42,207 nucleotides of DNA, taken from assembly GCA_021846505.1 (NCBI GenBank), contig JAJZWV010000033.1, positions 1-42,207 of the forward strand. The letters are read 5' to 3'. The notes below the pieces were generated by a model that did not search any database, had not been told where the DNA came from, and was given only the letters and a program-made list of their open reading frames with translations. Positions 4,153-14,540 of this stretch are shown here, one piece after another. The translations under genes were made by a program, and so were the position numbers. This DNA is from Bacillota bacterium (lineage in GTDB: Bacteria > Bacillota > Sulfobacillia > Sulfobacillales > JAIMBI01). How positions within the stretch are numbered: the stretch's first letter is position 1; every line of letters begins with the position of its first letter.

Positions 4153-5718
4153 CAGAAGCTCCTCAGTGAAAATGGGCTTTAAGCCCCGCGGGGCATGATC
4201 CGCGGCGGGCCGTGGGGCGGGAACAGGCCCCAGGTATGAAGGCCACCTTTCTACCAGTTTGTGGAGGGCTGGCCGGGTGGGATCGCGAAACACCTCCCCA
4301 GAGTGCTGCAAACGCCCCAGGAGGTGTTCCGTGATGCGCTCATTCCTGCGCGCTGCCACCAGAATATTCCGGATTACGGCGTGGGTCAAGACCCTGCCGG
4401 TCCCCGTGTCCGGCAGCCCCTATGGGCCCCGCGTGTGCGTGCTGCTCTGGTGGGCCGGCGCCCTGTTGCGGGTCCCCAGCGCGGAACCGCTCGAGCGGTG
4501 GGGGCGGGCGGGGCGGCTCCGCTGCCTCGCCCGCCCCCACCCCAGTGCCGATACGCTCCGGCGGCATCTGGACGCGGTGCCCCCCGCAGTCTGGCACGCC
4601 TACCTGCGCCGCCGGGCCCAGCGGCTGGCGAGGAATCGGGTGTGGGACCAGAGCCGGGTGGCGGGGTATCGGGTCGTGGCCGTCGATGGCGTGGAGTGGT
4701 TCGCCACGCGGGCCCAGAGTTGTGGGGACTGCACGCGGCGGGTGGTCCAGGGCGTGACCGAGTCGCACAAACGTGTCGTCGCGAGCCTCGTGGGCGCCAT
4801 CCCGATGGCACTGGCCTGGGAAACCCAACGGCCCGCGGACGGCACGGCCAAGAGCGAGGCGGAGTGGCGCGCGGTCCAGCGCCTGTTCGCCCGGTTGGCG
4901 CGAGCCTTCCACCACCACATCGACGTGGTGGTGGCCGACGCGGAGTACTGCACCCCGGTGTTTCTGCAGACCGCGCCGGGCTATGGTGGGGACGCCGTGG
5001 TCCGGTTGAAAAATGAACGGTTGACGATCTGGCAGGGTGCGCAGGGCTTGTTGAAAGTCACGCCGCCGGTGCTGTACCGGGCGACCCCGCACGTGATCCT
5101 GGGGATCTGGGATCTCCCCGACCTCGCCGGGGGCGTCCTCACCGGCCTACGGGTCGTGGTGTGGCAACGGTGGGACCACCGGCCCGGCCGCCCCCGGGAG
5201 GACGACCCGTTCCACACGGGCTTCGCGGTGACGACGGCGGGCCCCGGCATGACGGCCGAGGCGGTGTACACCATCATGCGGCACCGCGGGGAGGAAGAAA
5301 ACTGCATTCTTCGGCGGGGCCAGTCGGGCTGGGCGCTGGGGCACTGCTTTGGGCACACGCCGGCGCTGATCGCGGCCCTGATTGGCTTACAGCTCGGCGC
5401 GATGACGTTGTGGGCCTGGTGGGGGTACCGCCAGCGGGTCGCGCGGCCGGGGTCCGTGCCGCCCGAATGTGCGCGCATTGAGACGGCGCGGAAGGAGCTG
5501 GCGCGGATGCGGACCGACTGGACCGCGCAGTTCGGCACGGCGTCCTAAGGACGGCCGATGCCGCGCGCCGTGTGGCCGGCGCCGGGCTGCGGGTGACGGA
5601 CGGTGGCGTCGCCGCGCCCCTTATGGCGAATCGCGGCCCCGGCCCAGCGTCGTCGCGGCCGATGCGCTCGGTAGAGCGCCTGTGCTACCCACCGTTAAAA
5701 TCGGCTGAGGAGCTTCTG
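4153..5718 (+). mobile_element. Complete insertion sequence, 1566 bp, 14-bp terminal inverted repeats
   Basis: The left end CAGAAGCTCCTCAG (4153-4166) is the perfect complement of the right end CTGAGGAGCTTCTG (5705-5718). The element carries one transposase gene and is bounded by 9-bp direct repeats. The element has no passenger gene. It interrupts the intergenic space between the Yx4D lipoprotein and the small secreted peptide. Untranslated parts inside the element (about 4167-4318 and 5549-5704) show no other gene that I can support. A decayed relative lies at 915-2069. Confidence 0.85.
4334..5548 (+). CDS. DDE transposase of the insertion sequence (IS4-like/unclassified group)
   Basis: The 404-residue enzyme should cut and join the ends of the element. 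The catalytic triad is visible: the first Asp in VVAVDGVEWF, the second in VVVADAEY, and the Glu in the MRHRGEEENCI segment. The block after the first Asp (SCGDCTRR, then HKRVVASLVG) resembles a transposase group common in thermophilic Firmicutes, where the motif is DGTE..S....CP.C...H..V.A. The C-terminal GWALGHCFGH segment fits the same group. ATG 4334 is chosen because AGGAGGTG ends seven bases upstream; GTG 4331 and a weak TTG at 4259 are alternatives. The frame is intact and flanked by clean inverted repeats, so the gene is probably functional. Confidence 0.85.
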   Translation: MRSFLRAATRIFRITAWVKTLPVPVSGSPYGPRVCVLLWWAGALLRVPSAEPLERWGRAGRLRCLARPHPSADTLRRHLDAVPPAVWHAYLRRRAQRLARNRVWDQSRVAGYRVVAVDGVEWFATRAQSCGDCTRRVVQGVTESHKRVVASLVGAIPMALAWETQRPADGTAKSEAEWRAVQRLFARLARAFHHHIDVVVADAEYCTPVFLQTAPGYGGDAVVRLKNERLTIWQGAQGLLKVTPPVLYRATPHVILGIWDLPDLAGGVLTGLRVVVWQRWDHRPGRPREDDPFHTGFAVTTAGPGMTAEAVYTIMRHRGEEENCILRRGQSGWALGHCFGHTPALIAALIGLQLGAMTLWAWWGYRQRVARPGSVPPECARIETARKELARMRTDWTAQFGTAS

Positions 5719-6833: not shown

Positions 6834-7457
6834 TTACAGGGCCGACCAGGCCGACACTAGAAAACTGCCCAGCGGCACGACGAACACCACCAGCACCATC
6901 AGCAGGAGAGCGCCCGGCAGTGCCGCCGTCCAAAGGGGCCGCTTGGCTTCGCGCAGGCGCTCCTCCTGCGCCAGTCGCTCCCACAGCAACAGCCCCTGCG
7001 CGTGCGCGGCTTCGGCGTCGAGGCCATGCTCCCACGCGGTCCGCAGTAGCTGCGCCACTTGGCGCCCCTCCACGGAATTGTGCGCGCGGACGAACTCGTC
7101 CACCGCGCTCGCGTCGCCGGCCGACAGACGGTGCGCCAGGCCCAAGAGGGCCGCGCCCAGCAGTGTCGGGGGTGCGGCCTCCTCAATGGCCGCCAGCAGC
7201 GGAATGCCCGACGACGCCAACAGCGCCACCCCCTGCCAGAAGCGGCACAGTGCCGCCCGCTCCTGCGCCGGCCCGAAGCTCTCCGGCAGCCACTGGAGGG
7301 CCACGAGCACCAACAGCCCCACCCCCAGCGGCACCAGGCCCGCGGCAACCCACAGCAAGGCCACGGCGCCCCACCAGACGCTGCGGCCCACGCGGCTGCC
7401 ACCGGTAGCCCATTCCGACCACAGCAGGACTGCCCCGCCGGCCAACACATCAGGCAT
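6834..7457 (-). CDS. TadC-like inner-membrane assembly protein (T2SSF domain)
   Basis: Last gene of the hybrid secretion operon; 207 residues. An N-terminal hydrophobic region (about 27-57) is followed by a cytoplasmic T2SSF/GspF domain. This contains FWQGVALLASSGIPLLAAIE, the usual start of the helical repeat, and GLDAEAAHAQGLL. A C-terminal membrane segment (about 183-200) closes the protein. Tad-type systems use a TadB-TadC pair as the inner-membrane platform on which the motor ATPase acts. The domain layout (membrane, cytoplasmic bundle, membrane) and the position directly after the TadB-like gene support the call. The start ATG overlaps the end of that gene by 8 bases. It is shorter than typical TadC (about 280-320 residues), having lost part of the N-terminus. 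Confidence 0.75.
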   Translation of the reverse strand: MPDVLAGGAVLLWSEWATGGSRVGRSVWWGAVALLWVAAGLVPLGVGLLVLVALQWLPESFGPAQERAALCRFWQGVALLASSGIPLLAAIEEAAPPTLLGAALLGLAHRLSAGDASAVDEFVRAHNSVEGRQVAQLLRTAWEHGLDAEAAHAQGLLLWERLAQEERLREAKRPLWTAALPGALLLMVLVVFVVPLGSFLVSAWSAL

Positions 7458-8157
7458 GGCTCACCTCGCCCCGTTCCCGGTGGGCCAGCGCCATGACGCC
7501 CCACCCCACCGCCCCCGCCAGGATCAGCGCGGCCTGGCCCGGCAGCGTGCCCGCTAGGACCGCAAAGAAGGTGGGCACCATGATCCAAAACAGCACCACC
7601 ACTCCTAAGGGCGCAGCCGCCAGCACGGTGATGGTTCCTCGGCCCGACGCCAAGGCCGCCGTGCGCTCCCACCGCAGCCGGCGATCCAGCCGCAGCTGGG
7701 CCAGGAGCTGGTGCGCCAGCCGGTCCACCGATCCGCCGTGCCGAGCCAGCACCTGCCAGGCGCGGCTAGCCTGGCGAATGGCCGGAATCGGCCACGCCGC
7801 TGCCAGCTGATCCCCCAAATCGTCGACCCGGCGCGCCAGCGGGCGCAGGTGGGGCGGCAGCGATCGGTCCACTGCGCGCGCCAGTGCCGGCTCGGCGCCA
7901 GCCACCAACAGCAGCTGCTCCAGAAATTGCTCCACCTCTGAGTCCAGGGTGTCGCGATCACTCAGCCGCCGGCGCCACTGGCTGGCCGCCTGGTAGCCCC
8001 CGCCCAAAAGCAGCGCCCCGACGGCAAACGCCCACGAGCCCAACCCCAAGCCGGCCAGGGCGCCGAGCGCCGACTCCCAGCCGGCCCGGCGCCCTGCGGC
8101 CAGCGCCGCCGCCACGGCAGCGGCCACCCACCAGCCCCACGCAGTCTCCGGACTCAT
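7450..8157 (-). CDS. TadB-like inner-membrane assembly protein (T2SSF domain)
   Basis: A 235-residue platform protein. Two hydrophobic segments at the N-terminus are followed by a T2SSF helical bundle (about 75-165: FLEQLLLVAGAEPALARAV, then GSVDRLAHQLLAQLRLDRR). Two more hydrophobic segments (about 172-192 and 202-222) follow. This is the TadB layout; in Tad systems it pairs with TadC below the CpaF/TadA motor. ATG 8155-8157 overlaps the stop of the CpaF-like gene as ATGA, so the two are translationally coupled. A longer frame upstream runs inside the CpaF gene and is not used. Confidence 0.8.
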   Translation of the reverse strand: MSPETAWGWWVAAAVAAALAAGRRAGWESALGALAGLGLGSWAFAVGALLLGGGYQAASQWRRRLSDRDTLDSEVEQFLEQLLLVAGAEPALARAVDRSLPPHLRPLARRVDDLGDQLAAAWPIPAIRQASRAWQVLARHGGSVDRLAHQLLAQLRLDRRLRWERTAALASGRGTITVLAAAPLGVVVLFWIMVPTFFAVLAGTLPGQAALILAGAVGWGVMALAHRERGEVSHA

Positions 8158-9341
8158 GGGGTGGGCCGCTCGAGCTGCCCCGCGCGGTCGCGGACAAAGC
8201 GGGGGCGCACAGCGCCGTCCACGATGACGTCCACTTCCTCGACCCGCCGGGCCCCTTCCGGGGTGCGCGCCACAAACACGATGATGTCCACCGCACGCAA
8301 GATTTGCTGGCACAGCACCTCAAAAGACAGGGGCGTGCCGCTGCGAAGCGCCGCCCGCGCCATCCGGTACACGGTGTCCAAGCCGGGGCCGGGGCTATGC
8401 ACCGTGGTAAAGCTGCCGGGGTGGCCAGTGGCCATCGCCTCAATCAAATCGAGCGCTTCCTGGGCGCGCACCTCGCCGACAATGATGCGGTCGGGCCGCA
8501 TCCGGAGGGCCTGGACCACCAAATCGTGGGTGGTGTAGCGACCCGAACTTTCCAGAGACACGGTCCCTCCTCGAGGCAAATCCAACTCCCGCACATCCTC
8601 GATCACGACCAGCCTCTGGTCATGTGGGATGGCATCGGTCAACAGCCTCAGGAGATGGGTCTTGCCGGCGCCCGCGCCGCCGGCCACCACCACATTGGCT
8701 CGCGCCTGCACCGACTCCGTCAAAAACTCCCACACCTCCGGCGTCACGGCGCCGGCTTCCAGCAAGTCATCGATGCTGGGAGGCCGTTCGGGGGTGCGCC
8801 GGATGGCCAGCGCGGGGTATCGGCTCACCGGCGGCAGGATCACCGAGATGCGCGAGCCATCAGAAAGCCGCGCGTCCGCCATCGGGTGCTCCGTTGTGAG
8901 GTCGCGGCCCGCCCGCGCCGCCAGCCGCTGGGCCAGCGCAGCCACCTCCGCCTCGTCGGTGAACACCGACGCCACCCGCTCCAACACCCCTCCGCGCTCT
9001 ACTACCACCTCATCTGCGCGGTTCACCATAATCTCGGTGATGCGGTCATCCAGCAGCAGCGCATCCAATGCGCCGAGACCGGTCAGCTGGTTCAGGGCCG
9101 ACCGGCGAACCAGCGGCCGGACAGCCGGCTCGGTGTCGAAGTCGTCCAGCAAGGCATCCACCGCGCGGCCTAACGCCGCCAGCCGCTCTTCCGTCCACAC
9201 CAAGTACCCCAGCTGGTCCGCGTGGCGGGCCTCCACTTCGCGCACCACGCGCGCGCTCACCTCACTCAGGCCATCTACCGGCTCCCGGGCGTGGAGCGGC
9301 TGAAAGCGCCGGACACTTGACTCTGGAACCAATCGCGCCAT
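8154..9341 (-). CDS. CpaF/TadA-type secretion ATPase (VirB11/GspE superfamily)
   Basis: A hexameric AAA-like motor of 395 residues that powers pilus assembly or substrate export from the cytoplasmic side. After a leader of about 100 residues comes the CpaF N-domain (LDDRITEIMVNRADEVVVER) and an Asp-box region. Walker A is GGAGAGKT (about 221-228), Walker B is RIIVGE (about 285-290), and EAMATGHPGSFTTVHS contains the His box. All catalytic positions look intact. CpaF and VirB11 belong to one superfamily, so it could serve either half of the hybrid machine. The TadB/TadC neighbours favour the Tad side. The start MARLVPESS (9341) has GGGGGA upstream and lies inside the end of the CpaE-like gene; an upstream start at 9389 is possible. 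Confidence 0.9.
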   Translation of the reverse strand: MARLVPESSVRRFQPLHAREPVDGLSEVSARVVREVEARHADQLGYLVWTEERLAALGRAVDALLDDFDTEPAVRPLVRRSALNQLTGLGALDALLLDDRITEIMVNRADEVVVERGGVLERVASVFTDEAEVAALAQRLAARAGRDLTTEHPMADARLSDGSRISVILPPVSRYPALAIRRTPERPPSIDDLLEAGAVTPEVWEFLTESVQARANVVVAGGAGAGKTHLLRLLTDAIPHDQRLVVIEDVRELDLPRGGTVSLESSGRYTTHDLVVQALRMRPDRIIVGEVRAQEALDLIEAMATGHPGSFTTVHSPGPGLDTVYRMARAALRSGTPLSFEVLCQQILRAVDIIVFVARTPEGARRVEEVDVIVDGAVRPRFVRDRAGQLERPTP

Positions 9342-10246
9342 GCCTTCCGTCCCCCTTTCCCCGGCAGTGCGCCGGCTTGGCCAGGCCATCCGCTCGGCAG
9401 CTTCTCGGCCAGATGGCGGTGCCGGCCGGACAGGTCCGTGCCTTGGACCGCCACTGTCACCGCAGGATTCAGCTCCCGCAGGAGGCCCACCACTTGCGCC
9501 GCGCGCTCCTCTTGATTGGCGCGGCCCATCAGCACGACATGATCAGCGGCCGACGCCCACCGGGCCGCCGCCCACTGGCGCAGATCACGGCCCAAGTCGA
9601 CCACCACGATGCCACCGGACCGGCCCGCCACGTCCTGTGGCCCGGCCCCCCGCTCCGCCGGGACCAGATCCCAAGGTGCCGGGGCCGGCAGCAGAACGCC
9701 CCCGGCGCAGGCAACGGGACGCAAGCTGCTTTCCTGCCACGCTTGGGGGGCCAGCTTCTCTGTCAGCCCGGCCTGGCACCAGTCCGCGTCGACCCACACG
9801 ACAGGCCCGCGGCGCACAGCCAGCTGCTGGCCCCACGCCCACACCGCGGTGGTTACGCCCACCCCGCCCGCCAGGCCGGCCACAGCCACCACTTGCCCTT
9901 CGTCCCCGAATCCCACCGGCCCCAGCAGGCCCTGCACCCACGACTCCACCGTCGGCTCGTCCAGCTCGCCGCACCACACCGTAACCGCGGCAGGGAGTCC
10001 TCGCCAGGCTGGCGGCGGCGATTCCTCCAGCCACACTGCCACCGAGCGGCGATCGGCCCACCGCCGGACCTGATCGGCCGTGAGTCCGTCCAGCTCCTGG
10101 GTCACCATCACTCCTTGGATGCCGGGGCGGTCCAGCGCTTGCTCCATCGCGGCTGACGAATCCACCACCACCGCGCCGGAGGCGGCGCTGAGATGCCGCA
10201 GCTCGCCATGGGACGTGCCCACGGCTACTTGGGCCCAGGCGCTCAT
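9275..10246 (-). CDS. CpaE/TadZ-like MinD-superfamily protein with altered Walker A
   Basis: The 323 residues begin with a receiver-like region without clear phospho-acceptor (about 1-105). A ParA/MinD-type fold follows, as in CpaE/TadZ, which place the Tad machine at a site in the cell. The P-loop reads GLAGGVGVTT (124-133): the Lys of GGVGKTT is Val131, so ATP hydrolysis is unlikely. Later motifs are WVDADW (switch-like) and GIVVVDLGRDL, where the usual D-x-G-R is kept. Altered P-loops also occur in described TadZ proteins. ATG 10246 overlaps the stop of the CpaB-like gene (ATGA), and its end overlaps the start of cpaF. It is between CpaB and CpaF, exactly where Tad clusters place this gene. 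Confidence 0.75.
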   Translation of the reverse strand: MSAWAQVAVGTSHGELRHLSAASGAVVVDSSAAMEQALDRPGIQGVMVTQELDGLTADQVRRWADRRSVAVWLEESPPPAWRGLPAAVTVWCGELDEPTVESWVQGLLGPVGFGDEGQVVAVAGLAGGVGVTTAVWAWGQQLAVRRGPVVWVDADWCQAGLTEKLAPQAWQESSLRPVACAGGVLLPAPAPWDLVPAERGAGPQDVAGRSGGIVVVDLGRDLRQWAAARWASAADHVVLMGRANQEERAAQVVGLLRELNPAVTVAVQGTDLSGRHRHLAEKLPSGWPGQAGALPGKGGRKAWRDWFQSQVSGAFSRSTPGSR

Positions 10247-10776
10247 GGCATCGGCCCCAGGTTAATCAGGCTCGCGGCGGACAAGTTGTGCTGCACCATC
10301 GCCGCCAGCACCGCCACCGGCGCGCTGATCGTGATGGTTCCCGCGCCGCCGTACGCGCTGGCCAGCAGGGCGGCCACGACCACGGGGGGCGAAATCCACG
10401 CCCCATGGCGCCCTGCCACGGCAAATTCCACCCGGTCTCCCGGCGCCACCCCGGTGAGGGCGCCTGCATTGACCGCCACGGCCAGCGACGCGCCGGCCGG
10501 TGCGCCGGCGCCACCCTGCCGGAAGTCGGCGGCCACCACCGTCTGGCCTGGCTCCAAGCTGACTCGCGCCACTGCATGGCCCGGCGGCGGCGCCGTGCCG
10601 AATTGGACGACGGGCCGGAAGTCCTGGCGGGTCACCGCGCTGCCTGCAGGCACCGCCCGCGTCAGCACCCAAGCGGGAGCCGCTTGACGCGCGCTGTAGA
10701 TGCTGGCCGCCGCCAGGATCAAGCCGGCCGCCGGCAGCGCCAGCCGTGCCGGCAGACTCTTAAGCCCCACGGGCAT
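10243..10776 (-). CDS. CpaB/RcpC-like pilus assembly protein (SAF domain)
   Basis: A single N-terminal membrane segment (about 10-28) is followed by an extracytoplasmic SAF-type domain. VLTRAVPAGSAVTRQDFRPV and RVSLEPGQTVVAADFRQGG give the beta-clip pattern that CpaB shares with flagellar FlgA and sialic-acid synthase tails. A second block (GVAPGDRVEFAV) is typical of CpaB. At 177 residues it is shorter than most CpaB proteins (about 250-300). AAGGAGGGAG precedes ATG 10776. The gene start overlaps the end of the VirB4 gene by 17 bases, which directly joins the type IV secretion half and the Tad half in one transcript. Confidence 0.7.
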   Translation of the reverse strand: MPVGLKSLPARLALPAAGLILAAASIYSARQAAPAWVLTRAVPAGSAVTRQDFRPVVQFGTAPPPGHAVARVSLEPGQTVVAADFRQGGAGAPAGASLAVAVNAGALTGVAPGDRVEFAVAGRHGAWISPPVVVAALLASAYGGAGTITISAPVAVLAAMVQHNLSAASLINLGPMP

Positions 10777-12433
10777 GAGCTTCTCCCTCCTTGATCAGGC
10801 GCGCTTCCAGTGGGCTCGCCTGGATGCGAATCGGGATGCGGTCGCGGTCCACCATCAAAAGCCCCTCACCGACGCCCGATCCTTCCAGCAGGGCGGCCTC
10901 CGGCTTCGTGAGGTGGAACACCTGCGACAGCTCGGGGACCGCGTCTGGGTGCGGGCGCAGCAGCAGCACCAGCGGGCTGTTGCGCAGGCACACCTGGGCC
11001 GACACCGACCGGAGCGCATCATGGGCATCCTGCGTCACCAGCGTAAGCGCCGTGCGCCACTTGCGCGCCCGCCGGTACAGCTCCTCCAGATACGGAGCCA
11101 GGCGAGGATCGGCCAGCAGATGCCACGCCTCATCAAACACGACCCATCGGGGCGCTGCGCGGTAGAGCGTGGCCGCTACATGCTCCACAGCCACCAAATA
11201 TGCTGCCGTGGCCAAGCTGGCTGGGATGCGGGACAGGTCCACGACCGTGAAGCCATCGTCGGGAAATGGCTCCGCCGTGTCGCCCATGAGTGCAACCCAC
11301 TCTCGGACCGAGGGTCCGATGCGCTCAGCGATGCTGGCATCCCACTCTGTGAGCTCCTCCAGCCAAGGGCCGGGCCCGATATCCGCAGCGGCGCCGGCCA
11401 AATTTTCGCGCACCGCGTCGGCCATCCGGCGGGGAAGGCGCGTGCCCAGGGTGTCCAGCCAGCGCACCGCGAAGTTGGCGCGACGGGCTCGCTCGGCGGG
11501 CGTGTCCTCGTAGACGGCCAGGGGGTTCAAGCCAGCACCTCGGCCCACGCGCATCACGTGCGCCGGTTCGGCTAAGGCTCCATACTCGCCCTCGGGGTCC
11601 ACCACCAGCACCGGGAGCCCCTGATAGCGTGCGCGGAGCATCAGCACTTTGGTGGCAAAGCTCTTGCCGGCTCCTGACCACGCGACCGTGAGGCTGTGCG
11701 GGGCTGGCAGCCGATCGCGGTCCACCACCACCAAGCTTTGCGTGAGAGGGTTTTCTCCCCACACCTGCCCCCGCGGGTGTTGGACCTCGTCCCCCATCCA
11801 TGGAAACAGGGTCGCGGCCGCGCGGCTGTCCATCTCCCTTGCCCCTTGCCGCGGGAAGCCCCCGGGCAGCGCACTGCGAAACGTCTCCACCTGCTGAAAC
11901 CGACACCGGCGCAGGGGAAGCATGAGGCTTTCGGCCACGCTCATCACCTGGTGGCAGCGGCGGTCCAGCTCATCCTTGGTGGGAGCTTGCAGCACCACCG
12001 CCAGCCCTACCGTGAGCAGCCGGGTGGCGCCGCGGGCCAACTCGCGCCGGAGCTCCTCCGCATCGGCGGCCGCGGTTTGGCCGGCTGCGTCCGGCAGGCG
12101 CCCCATCTGAGAACGCGACCGCTCGGCGCCCTGATGCCAAATGAGCCGGCGCGTGAGCCGGGCCACCTGCTCTTCAGATCCCAGCGGCTCGATGGCCAAC
12201 ACCACCACATGGGCAAACGGAGCCTCTAACAGCGGCCGCCACCATCCCGCCCGCACCTCCCTCGGCCAGCCCCGCACCGCCAGCGCCCTCACCCAGCGGT
12301 CGTCAATGGCGAGGGCGTCGGGAAGTACCTCGATGGAATCTGGCCAGATGGACAGCAGCCGCCGACCCTCGCCCGCGTCGCGAGGGTCATCCCTCAGGAC
12401 TCTTCTGGCCACGGAGCGACGTCCCATGACCAC
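10760..12433 (-). CDS. VirB4/TraC-type conjugation ATPase
   Basis: A 557-residue motor ATPase of the VirB4/TrbE/TraC family. It should energise pilus biogenesis and substrate passage at the inner membrane. Walker A is AWSGAGKS (251-258) and Walker B VVFDEAW (431-437), followed by the helix with AYLEEL-like spacing RLAPYLEELYRRARKWRTAL and TQDAHD. VVDPEGEYGALAE is the usual VirB4 block after Walker A. The N-terminal VirB4 domain is largely missing and is found in the gene upstream. AAGGAGGTGA precedes two possible starts, GTG 12433 and ATG 12427. The frame starts inside the end of the upstream gene (about 40-base overlap). No VirD4-like coupling ATPase is present nearby. Confidence 0.9.
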   Translation of the reverse strand: MVMGRRSVARRVLRDDPRDAGEGRRLLSIWPDSIEVLPDALAIDDRWVRALAVRGWPREVRAGWWRPLLEAPFAHVVVLAIEPLGSEEQVARLTRRLIWHQGAERSRSQMGRLPDAAGQTAAADAEELRRELARGATRLLTVGLAVVLQAPTKDELDRRCHQVMSVAESLMLPLRRCRFQQVETFRSALPGGFPRQGAREMDSRAAATLFPWMGDEVQHPRGQVWGENPLTQSLVVVDRDRLPAPHSLTVAWSGAGKSFATKVLMLRARYQGLPVLVVDPEGEYGALAEPAHVMRVGRGAGLNPLAVYEDTPAERARRANFAVRWLDTLGTRLPRRMADAVRENLAGAAADIGPGPWLEELTEWDASIAERIGPSVREWVALMGDTAEPFPDDGFTVVDLSRIPASLATAAYLVAVEHVAATLYRAAPRWVVFDEAWHLLADPRLAPYLEELYRRARKWRTALTLVTQDAHDALRSVSAQVCLRNSPLVLLLRPHPDAVPELSQVFHLTKPEAALLEGSGVGEGLLMVDRDRIPIRIQASPLEARLIKEGEAHARGA

Positions 12434-13005
12434 TTCACCTCCTTGGGCAGTTCCACGGCCGCCAGCGCCGAAAACACGAAGTCGTACAGCTCCTCGGTCG
12501 GGAGCTGGCGGATGCGGACACCCACCGGCCGCAGTCCCTCCGCCACGGCGGCCTGCCGCCGGGTCAGCTCCATCTGCGCCTCATCCCACAGCACCTCGCC
12601 CCGCTTGAGGGGCCGGCTGCGCGAGTCCAGGCCCTGCCAAGACAGCACCAGGAAAAAACGGCGGCGCAGCAGGTGCTCGGTCCGCGCAGACTCTTGCAGA
12701 AAGCGCACGTAGTCGGCCAGGGCGGGCCGAAGATGCGGCTCAAGCTGCCCCTCTTGGGACTTCACTTCGGCCAGGTATTCGTCAAGCCGCATCCGGTCGG
12801 TCCGAATCAGGATCTGGATGGGAAACGCCAGGCCGTTTAAGAAGTTGGTAAACTGCAACACGAGCGCGTGCCGCTCGCGATCGCTTTTGAGGGCGAATCC
12901 CACCGGGGTCACCTCCAGCACCGCGACAAACCGATCTCGCTCCAACAGGCACATTCCGCCGCCAATGGCCCGCAGCGGGTACAGGCGCCGCATGCCGGCC
13001 GTCAT
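12394..13005 (-). CDS. TraC-like protein, detached N-terminal domain of VirB4
   Basis: The 203-residue soluble protein has the pattern of the VirB4 N-terminal region. MCLLERDRFVAVLEVTPVGF is followed by a segment ending RHALVLQFTNFLNGLAFPIQ, then a helical part (DYVRFLQESARTEHLLRRRF) and a strand (FFLVLSWQG). The same split of PrgI, TraC-like N-domain and VirB4 into adjacent genes is known from Firmicutes conjugative elements and candidate-phylum genomes. It presumably forms one complex with the ATPase encoded next. ATG 13005 has GGAG eight bases upstream. A longer frame runs up to 13242 inside the PrgI gene and is rejected for lack of protein-like sequence. Confidence 0.75.
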   Translation of the reverse strand: MTAGMRRLYPLRAIGGGMCLLERDRFVAVLEVTPVGFALKSDRERHALVLQFTNFLNGLAFPIQILIRTDRMRLDEYLAEVKSQEGQLEPHLRPALADYVRFLQESARTEHLLRRRFFLVLSWQGLDSRSRPLKRGEVLWDEAQMELTRRQAAVAEGLRPVGVRIRQLPTEELYDFVFSALAAVELPKEVKWSWDVAPWPEES

Positions 13006-13072
13006 TTTCACCACTCCAACTGCCCCTTTCGCTTTCGCCTTTTGCTCTCCTCGGATGGGCTGCACTCTCCCC

Positions 13073-13342
13073 TCAGGACTCCGGAACGAAACAGCGCGGC
13101 GACAGATGATACCAGGCCCACCAGCCAACCTGCATCCACAGGGGATCGTGGTCCAGCCGCACCAATGCGGCGGCCGCCAGCCCGGCCACCGCCGCCGCGG
13201 CGCCCATGGGGTGGCCGGGCGCGGCATATGCCATGGCGCCAAGCGACACGCCAGCCGCTAACACCAGGGCGTCGCCCAATCCCACCCCGAAGAGCGCGCC
13301 CGCCTCACTGGGAAGCGGCAGCGGAATTTCCCTCCTTACCAC
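13073..13342 (-). CDS. PrgI-family conjugation membrane protein
   Basis: An 89-residue protein with a PrgI-type start (MVRREIPLPLPSEAG, where the R-x-x-I-P signature is conserved). Two membrane helices follow (about 25-46 and 50-64), then an amphipathic tail WMQVGWWAWYHLSP. PrgI proteins sit in the inner membrane of Gram-positive type IV secretion systems and are normally encoded just before the VirB4 gene, as here. The start is GTG 13342, eight bases after GGGGAG, and overlaps the stop of the VirB6-like gene. An AGGAGG lies just downstream of this GTG and could serve an internal non-ATG start, but that would delete the conserved first residues. Confidence 0.7.
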   Translation of the reverse strand: MVRREIPLPLPSEAGALFGVGLGDALVLAAGVSLGAMAYAAPGHPMGAAAAVAGLAAAALVRLDHDPLWMQVGWWAWYHLSPRCFVPES

Positions 13343-14091
13343 AGCGTGCGCTCCCCGCCCAGCCGCCCCACCTCATTGGGAATGCGCGCAAGAAACCACA
13401 AGCCGCCGGCCGCCACCAGCATCCCCCCGAAGGAAGCGGCCTGCACCACCAGTCGAACGGCGATCCACCACCCCGCCGCTTGCGCCGCCTGCACAAGGAC
13501 CAGCGCCAAAAGCCGGCGGCAGGGCCTCCACAGCACACCGGGATCCCCGCTGGCCACGAAGCCCAGCGCCGCCCAAGGCACCCACGCCGCGAGCCAGTAC
13601 ACGTACACGGCCCGCACCACATACCAGAGTGACAGGTACAGCACCAGTGCTCCCAAAGCCCCCTCCAGCCCCAGCAGCATCAAGGGCGAGGCGGCCAACG
13701 CGCCGCCGGACCAGTCGAGGGTCCCCGCAGAGCCGCTAATCAGGGCGGCCACGACCGCGTTGTTGAGGGACAGCAGCATCTGCATCAGGCTGGGAAGGCC
13801 CCCCATCACCATCGCGGCCAGGACGGCCCGCACCAGCAGGCCGGACCATGGCCGCGCGGGCGCCAGCTGCACCAGCGTGGGCCACACCGCCGCGACGGCA
13901 GCCAGGGCCAGCGCCCCTGCCAGCGCACCCCATGCCAAATCGCGAGACCACGCCAACAGCACGATCGCGGGCCCGGTCCAGCGGAGCGGGTAAAACACCA
14001 CCTGCGACAGGGCCACCTGAGCGCCCGCGGTAATCCATCCCACCACCACGCCGTCCAGGTACCGGAGAAACAGCAGGATGGGATTCATCAC
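13336..14091 (-). CDS. VirB6/TrbL-like polytopic membrane protein
   Basis: A 251-residue, strongly hydrophobic protein with about six membrane helices. It has a YxDGVVVGWITAGAQ start region and a central LPSLMQMLLSLNNAVV segment preceding a more polar loop with SGSAG. It resembles the VirB6/TrbL channel subunits of type IV secretion in size, helix layout and position between pilin and PrgI. Sequence identity in this family is low, so the call rests partly on context. Either GTG 14091 or ATG 14088 is the start; both overlap the stop codon of the pilin gene (GTGATG), indicating coupled translation. Confidence 0.65.
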   Translation of the reverse strand: MMNPILLFLRYLDGVVVGWITAGAQVALSQVVFYPLRWTGPAIVLLAWSRDLAWGALAGALALAAVAAVWPTLVQLAPARPWSGLLVRAVLAAMVMGGLPSLMQMLLSLNNAVVAALISGSAGTLDWSGGALAASPLMLLGLEGALGALVLYLSLWYVVRAVYVYWLAAWVPWAALGFVASGDPGVLWRPCRRLLALVLVQAAQAAGWWIAVRLVVQAASFGGMLVAAGGLWFLARIPNEVGRLGGERTLW

Positions 14092-14321
14092 TTGGCCACA
14101 AATTGCAGCAGGTTCTTGATGACGGCCACCATTAAAATCAGCAGCAGACCCAAGGCGGCTCGCGCCATCACGCCCTTCGCGCCCTCGACGCTGCGGGGGC
14201 TGGACGCCGTCATGAAACGAATCCCCCCGTACACCATGACCAGCGTAAACAGCCCGCCAGCCACAGCGACCAGGAGATTCGTAATGCGGGCGACGGCTGC
14301 CAAAATGTTGACCGTCGGCAT
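14088..14321 (-). CDS. VirB2/TrbC-like pilin subunit
   Basis: First gene of the ten-gene operon. The 77-residue protein consists of two membrane helices (about 15-37 and 53-72) joined by a polar loop with SSPRSVEGAKG, and it ends in a short basic tail. This is the helical hairpin of VirB2/TrbC pilins, and the motif VMVYGGIRFMTAS is typical of the Gram-positive and candidate-phylum members. No long signal peptide precedes it. ATG 14321 follows GAGGAGGGGG with ideal spacing, stronger than for most genes here, as expected for an abundant subunit. It takes the place that an Flp pilin gene would hold in a normal Tad cluster. Confidence 0.75.
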   Translation of the reverse strand: MPTVNILAAVARITNLLVAVAGGLFTLVMVYGGIRFMTASSPRSVEGAKGVMARAALGLLLILMVAVIKNLLQFVAK

Positions 14322-14540
14322 GGTCCCCCTCCTCTCATCAAGCCCACCGCCGATGATATCGACAGGGGTCCGGATATTTCGTGTTTAATCCCCACGATTT
14401 TTCTGGAGCTACTAAGAGCGCTATATCACGCCATTCCTTGAATATGTCGGATTCGACACGCTTCGATATATCTACCGACATTGACCAGGTGAGGCAATAG
14501 GAGGGTTTCTGGAGACACAGCAGTGACGGGCAGGGACCTG
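14322..14540 (-). promoter_or_regulatory. AT-richer leader upstream of the hybrid secretion operon
   Basis: This stretch is clearly richer in A and T than its surroundings (GATATATCG, ATATTCAAGG, TTAAACACGAAATATCC on the minus strand). It must hold the operon promoter. The best pair I can find is TTGCCT and TAGATA with a 17-base spacer at about 14494-14465, which is weak. GTCGG...CCGAC forms an inverted repeat around it. A 47-codon open frame is possible here but lacks a ribosome binding site. Confidence 0.35.

Follow-up and report, generated by a model that had tools for sequence, protein, structure and literature searches.

An operon of VirB-type and Tad-type genes fixed in the chromosome of Sulfobacillales, a candidate DNA-exchange system in an order without ComEC

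The window analysed here, a contig of 42,207 nucleotides (G000:C100) that is part of a 3.58 Mb draft genome of the order Sulfobacillales (Bacillota), carries ten minus-strand open reading frames (ORFs) that form one overlapping cluster from position 14321 to 6834. From first to last they encode VirB2, VirB6, a PrgI/VirB3-like protein, the N-terminal and C-terminal parts of VirB4 (VirB4N and VirB4C), CpaB, CpaE, CpaF, TadB and TadC, so that the components of a type IV secretion system (T4SS) are followed by those of a Tad pilus. The operon is a fixture of the order, whose genomes lack ComEC, and it may be a domesticated machine for DNA exchange. A first-pass annotation of this DNA, made from the letters and their translations, had placed the ten ORFs correctly and had given an exact figure for the 17-base overlap between the VirB4 and CpaB genes. 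It counted nine genes joined by overlaps, which is one too many: at eight of the nine junctions the genes overlap (by 4, 7, 34–40, 17, 4, 67–115, 4 and 8 bases), and at the remaining one there is a gap. This gap measures 67 bases, as had been reported, if virB4N starts at the ATG at 13005, the start favoured by orthologues, and 7 bases if it starts at the GTG at 13065. What had been taken for a single VirB4 gene is in fact two, one for the N-domain and one for the ATPase.

In all fully read loci of the order, virB2 is the first gene of the operon. In the window it occupies 14088–14321 (minus strand, like all the genes described below) and encodes a VirB2-like T4SS pilin of 77 amino acids with two transmembrane helices, which matches T4SS_pilin (PF18895) above cut-off (E = 4e-7). 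The VirB6/TrbL-like channel protein (13336–14091; 251 amino acids) gives by itself a weak Pfam match, below cut-off; TrbL_4 is matched by 10 of 15 orthologues (best 1.5e-7). When its AlphaFold model (predicted local distance difference test score, pLDDT, 79) was searched with Foldseek, the top matches were VirB6 of R388 (7o3v, 8rt9 and 8rtd), which also had the top Z scores. Values of 10.7–11.0 may reflect a shared helical arrangement alone, but the top matches are nonetheless all VirB6, and on the TrbL_4 matches and the modelled structure together we identify the product as a VirB6-type channel. The third gene, fittingly placed beside virB4, encodes a putative PrgI/VirB3-like membrane protein (13073–13342; 89 amino acids). 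A Pfam search of the window protein gave no direct match; PF12666 was matched by 2 of 10 orthologues (best 6e-4), and in one relative (L061) the protein is fused with VirB4.

The separate gene for the VirB4 N-terminal domain (12394–13005, with the alternative upstream start at 13065; ~203 amino acids) is kept within the order at a mean identity of 55%. We read it and the next gene as a VirB4 split into N-domain and ATPase because Foldseek matches 1–14 of the virB4N model (pLDDT 70) are all VirB4-containing chains of R388. A frameshifted VirB4 is ruled out, since the two-gene split is conserved throughout the order. The C-terminal ATPase (10760–12433; 557 amino acids) has intact Walker A (AWSGAGKS) and Walker B motifs, the former being present in 39 of 40 relatives. 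It matches AAA_10, TraC_F_IV and P-loop_TraG above the Pfam cut-offs, the VirB4 of PDB entry 4ag5 at 1e-15, and the NCBIfam model for the CD1110-family (Gram-positive) VirB4 at 2e-60, which lies under the curated cut-off of that model.

The Tad half opens with a CpaB/RcpC-like SAF-domain protein (10243–10776; 177 amino acids). A direct profile search with the window protein found no match, and SAF (PF08666) is present in 11 of 14 orthologues (best 2.5e-6). The CpaE/MinD-like protein (9275–10246) yields weak AAA_31 and KGGVGR-variant matches. Its P-loop is degenerate (GGVGVTT, lacking the signature lysine), and a canonical P-loop motif, looked for in the orthologues, was not found in most of them. 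The CpaF/TadA/VirB11-like ATPase (8154–9389, alternative start 9341; 411 amino acids) carries a Walker A motif, GGAGAGKT, that is kept in 27 of 27 sequences; it matches T2SSE of Pfam at 3e-38 and the TadA-like model TIGR03819 of NCBIfam at 6e-71, under the curated cut-off. The last two genes encode TadB-like (7450–8157; 235 amino acids) and TadC-like (6834–7457; 207 amino acids) platform proteins, whose T2SSF matches fall below cut-off (1.5e-4 and 1.3e-3, respectively); T2SSF is matched by 4 of 12 TadB-like orthologues (best 4.8e-5) and by 2 of 11 TadC-like ones. The profile check proposed in the first-pass annotation was thus answered at the level of protein families for TrbL_4, SAF and T2SSF, if for PrgI in two sequences only, and its outcome favours a hybrid of the two systems.

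The order, one of acidophilic bacteria, is represented by 42 genomes and includes Sulfobacillus. VirB4C is present in 40 of them, among these all seven of the family to which the window belongs. In families f1, f2 and f3 of the order the ten genes keep the same arrangement at one chromosomal place, with a common upstream block of gatB, uracil-methyltransferase, amino-acid permease and thioesterase genes. That three families share the arrangement at a single syntenic locus rules out a chance junction of two operons, the possibility that the neighbourhood comparison of VirB4 with TadB/TadC had been meant to probe, and the comparison again favours the hybrid. The complete genome G090 holds the entire set twice, as neighbouring copies (L047 and L080) within ~15 kb.

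Copies of VirB4 and CpaF that belong to mobile elements coexist with the chromosomal ones in the same genomes, in clades apart from them, and both modules are known from conjugative plasmids of Sulfobacillus (PMC6803676). Such facts would suit a remnant, or a cargo-less form, of an integrated conjugative element, which we nevertheless consider extremely improbable: throughout the order the locus is fixed between housekeeping genes and does not show the mobility of a conjugative element, its motifs are intact, its VirB4 and CpaF form clades of their own (support 1.0 for the window-type CpaF), and no gene for a relaxase or a type IV coupling protein (T4CP) was seen adjacent to it in the loci examined. 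On the fixed locus and the separate clades, we rejected the reading of the chromosomal copy as an integrated element. A recent insertion of a conjugative element is refuted; an ancient origin from one is likely.

The two halves are not adjacent everywhere. In several genera of f3 the cpaF–tadB–tadC trio is displaced: it lies ~4 kb off in G095 and G096, a few kb off and inverted in G111, 23–32 kb off in G105, G106 and G108–G110, and on another contig in G097, G107, G121 and G122. Where examined, the detached trio is still contiguous and retained, and its CpaF joins the in-operon copies in the hybrid CpaF clade and is separate from that of the ordinary Tad copy located elsewhere in these genomes. 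The window shares with the detached loci L118 and L119 a UbiA-like gene 3′ of tadC.

Beyond the order, VirB2, VirB6 and VirB4 genes occur together with CpaB and/or CpaE-like, CpaF and TadB/TadC-like genes in families f21, f24 and f25. The VirB4 sequences of f24 and f25 are distant, and those of all three families fall in clades other than that of the order; a common ancestry for the hybrids inside and outside the order is therefore not established. In the survey of hybrid loci, an early virB4N profile drew in virB4C sequences, and its matches do not separate the two. In f25, whose genomes measure 1.5–1.6 Mb, small pilin-like and TadE-like ORFs lie directly 3′ of tadC (L093:5700–6330, minus strand); they have no Pfam match. 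Families f34 and f35 possess a VirB2–VirB6–VirB4 locus without adjacent CpaF, TadB or TadC, which in f35 stands beside a glutamine synthetase gene in the two loci compared. Their CpaF was considered as a detached half of the hybrid and rejected, as it groups with the ordinary Tad copy.

These separations raise the question whether one transcript serves two machines, a small VirB system and an adhesive Tad pilus with pilins from elsewhere, CpaF perhaps also serving VirB4. The halves do part in several genera, the VirB half stands alone in f34 and f35, and the pilins could come from an ordinary Tad locus of the same genome (L078), which has an RcpC/CpaB of its own and a Tad/TadG-like gene. We regard this as unlikely, given that the trio, once detached, has been kept as a unit, that at the splits CpaB and CpaE remain with the VirB half and not with CpaF, and that f21, f24 and f25 show the same combination. 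The view of the first-pass annotation that the two halves belong together is supported by their contiguity at a conserved locus, their linkage or co-retention throughout the order and their recurrence in other families.

None of the 42 genomes of the order encodes ComEC (PF03772), for which the control genomes were positive. In the class as a whole it occurs in 80 of 154 genomes, that is, in 80 of the 112 outside the order. VirB4 and ComEC come close to mutual exclusion: 66 genomes have VirB4 without ComEC, 8 have both, 72 have ComEC without VirB4 and 8 have neither (Fisher p ~5e-25, uncorrected for phylogeny, so that relatives are counted although not independent). Two members of the order are among those with neither; the assembly of one, G124, reaches only 71% completeness. 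In an RpoB tree of 59 genomes, the VirB4-positive, ComEC-negative genomes fall into roughly three to five lineages. The order is recovered with support of 1.0; f34 and f35 (0.997) stand beside the ComEC-positive f32, f33 and f36; f23–f26 (0.74) are joined to the order at 0.43; and f22 and f21 are weakly placed beside ComEC-positive families. DprA is found in 71 of the 80 ComEC-positive genomes versus 12 of the 66 that have VirB4 without ComEC. Since DprA is gone together with ComEC in most VirB4-bearing lineages of the class, the classic transformation route has been lost as a whole, which weakens the idea that ComEC was replaced in an otherwise intact transformation pathway. The losses fit replacement by another route, but also plain loss.

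In the loci examined, no coupling-protein gene lies in the operon or adjoins it. PF02534 is matched in 31 of the 42 genomes of the order, and the strong, long matches include element copies, encoded close to element-type VirB4. A separate form, ~500 amino acids long, is chromosomal and unlinked to the operon in eight genomes from f1, f2 and f3 (L207:6772–9116, on contig C10 of the same genome as the window; L206:6990–10043 in G110; L208–L211, L214 and L215). In most of the eight this conserved gene is followed by one for a short protein and usually then by a MinC_C gene. The short protein of G110 is Replic_Relax by Pfam. The T4CP gene overlaps a Replic_Relax gene, which points to DNA. Among the loci compared, the best match of the chromosomal T4CP is the TraG encoded on an Embleya plasmid, whose gene also precedes one for replication-relaxation. 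Possibly, then, the T4CP and the Replic_Relax protein are the DNA-presenting part of the same system as the operon. A conserved T4CP might also be the substrate receptor of a T4SS that secretes proteins, for example effectors into neighbouring bacteria, with VirB4 and CpaF supplying the power. Protein translocators exist among chromosomal T4SSs, and no canonical relaxase was recognised beside the operon in the loci examined, where no dedicated relaxase profile search was made. We find protein secretion quite unlikely, as no conserved effector or immunity genes lie beside the operon, the overlap with the Replic_Relax gene argues for DNA, and the anti-correlation with ComEC would be left unexplained.

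We propose instead that the operon is a chromosomally fixed, domesticated DNA-exchange machine of monoderm bacteria, a reading of the gene content to which we assign a probability of about one half. A role in DNA exchange is suggested by the lack, throughout the order, of the usual uptake channel, ComEC, and the anti-correlation of VirB4 with ComEC is new evidence on DNA transfer. VirB2, VirB6, PrgI/VirB3 and the two-part VirB4 would provide a membrane channel and its motor, VirB6 and VirB2 acting as pore and filament and PrgI as a link. CpaF would be the second ATPase of the T4SS and TadB/TadC its membrane platform; aided by CpaB and CpaE, they may form a Tad-derived pilus or assembly engine that joins cells or drives the channel, much as Ups pili act beside Ced, or type IV pili beside PAPI-1/IncI transfer. 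The more specific suggestion of the first-pass annotation, that the VirB2-like subunit is built by the Tad platform, is not supported. The chromosomal T4CP and the nuclease-like Replic_Relax protein would probably present the DNA, and the likely task would be cell-to-cell exchange of chromosomal DNA in lineages without ComEC/DprA transformation. We thus infer that the two halves form one machine, that its substrate is DNA and that the coupling pair works with it. As for direction, a coupling protein is not listed among the Ced components, and its presence here means that transfer may run outwards as well as inwards.

Cultured members of the order live on mineral sulfides, and Tad pili commonly adhere. 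A structural or adhesive pilus, of VirB2 or Tad type, might serve aggregation or mineral attachment without any transport of macromolecules. This seems to us very unlikely, because adhesion has no need of a VirB6 channel, of a complete VirB4 motor or of a conserved T4CP.

Several observations weigh against DNA exchange by a hybrid machine. The operon of the order contains no Flp or TadE-type pilin gene, and no small transmembrane pilin-like ORF was found 3′ of tadC in its loci, the operon has no recognised relaxase at its side, and the T4CP pair is tied to it by co-occurrence only. In f34 and f35 the VirB half occurs without adjacent Tad genes, so that the correlation with ComEC tracks that half and not the hybrid. 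The VirB4-positive, ComEC-negative state is, moreover, mostly shared by whole families, and the RpoB tree has some weakly supported branches. With DprA mostly absent, imported DNA must recombine in some other way, or else transformation was simply lost.

Upstream of virB2, the window carries a GTCGAA element (14452–14457, minus strand) that is found in about two thirds of 32 loci of the order. In these it lies on the coding strand in the same orientation, mostly 92–145 nucleotides 5′ of virB2, at ~14-fold over background, and it is probably a regulatory site. We rejected the idea that the element is shared between the operon and the detached cpaF loci, since only one of six of the latter has it upstream. 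A LexA-type site (GAAC-N4-GTTC) was found upstream of virB2 in none of the scanned loci. Elsewhere in the window, an ORF of 429 amino acids on the plus strand (4259–5548) resembles, by eye, an insertion sequence transposase, and similar broken sequence occurs near 181–1857.

The first-pass annotation knew of no described system in which one operon holds both engines, which was too strong. Plasmids pL15 and pY0017 of S. thermotolerans have been described as carrying a conjugation system with homologues of T4SS and type II secretion components (PMC6803676), and since a conjugative plasmid of Sulfobacillus was thus already reported to bear T4SS and Tad genes together, their combination is not entirely without precedent. 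Like the operon, these replicons, from the same order, bear VirB4, TrbL and CpaF/TadB/TadC; they differ in being plasmids, with a relaxase and TraG, modules ~15 kb apart and a VirB4 annotated as one gene, and their VirB4 and CpaF fall in clades other than those of the chromosomal operon. On plasmids of Cutibacterium acnes, VirB4 lies beside a tad locus (PMC5696575), and in Embleya (NZ_CP108778) PrgI, VirB4, TraG and Replic_Relax genes are followed, ~7–10 kb on, by SAF, CpaF, TadB and TadC. These actinobacterial systems differ from the operon in being plasmid-borne, in having TadE/TadG-type genes and in keeping the modules in separate blocks. In searches of an open-access library we found no description of the chromosomal operon or of its link with ComEC, though one may exist elsewhere.

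The T4SS of Patescibacteria resembles the operon in its chromosomal monoderm core and VirB2-like pilin; it differs in the epibiont lifestyle of its hosts, and in the report ComEC homologues are mentioned and Tad is not (PMC12102498). PAPI-1 and IncI transfer parallels our proposal in combining a type IV pilus with the T4SS ATPases VirB4 and VirD4 (PMC12857230), but on mobile elements of Gram-negative bacteria and with a pilus of another class, not Tad. DNA uptake driven by Tad pili has a precedent (PMC8513845). Gram-positive T4SSs are said to be universally without VirB11 (PMC12857230), and the operon would give one of them an ATPase of this type.

As functional models we take the archaeal Ced and Ted systems with Ups pili (Sulfolobales and Thermoproteales), which the first-pass annotation had already invoked. 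The comparison is apt as regards a chromosomal, domesticated VirB2/VirB6/VirB4 set; Ced, moreover, divides the functions of VirB4 over CedB and CedD, as they are divided over two genes here, and depends on an accompanying type IV pilus system, and MinD/ParA-like genes occur near Ted (PMC11868833, PMC9905601). It is less apt for import as the sole direction, given the chromosomal coupling protein of the order. The operon also differs in being bacterial, in having PrgI and Tad instead of Ups parts, and in joining both modules in one operon; its hosts possess a chromosomal T4CP and Replic_Relax, and DNA import and ultraviolet induction are features of Ced/Ted. ComEC is regarded as necessary to every naturally competent bacterium (PMC12455585). 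The main import of our results lies in the repeated loss of ComEC from lineages with a fixed chromosomal VirB system. It is tempting to speculate, though this broader proposal is tentative and rather doubtful, that in several lineages a conjugation-derived VirB2/VirB6/VirB4 machine, sometimes joined to Tad in an operon, took over natural DNA exchange from ComEC/DprA, as a bacterial counterpart of Ced and Ups able to import, and perhaps to export, chromosomal DNA in the absence of ComEC. The complete genomes of cultured Sulfobacillus make the idea of DNA exchange testable. Were it true, a conjugation system would have become a function of its hosts on more than one occasion, and an order of ComEC-less bacteria with a vertically inherited VirB/Tad machine would be the bacterial parallel of the archaeal Ced/Ups systems.

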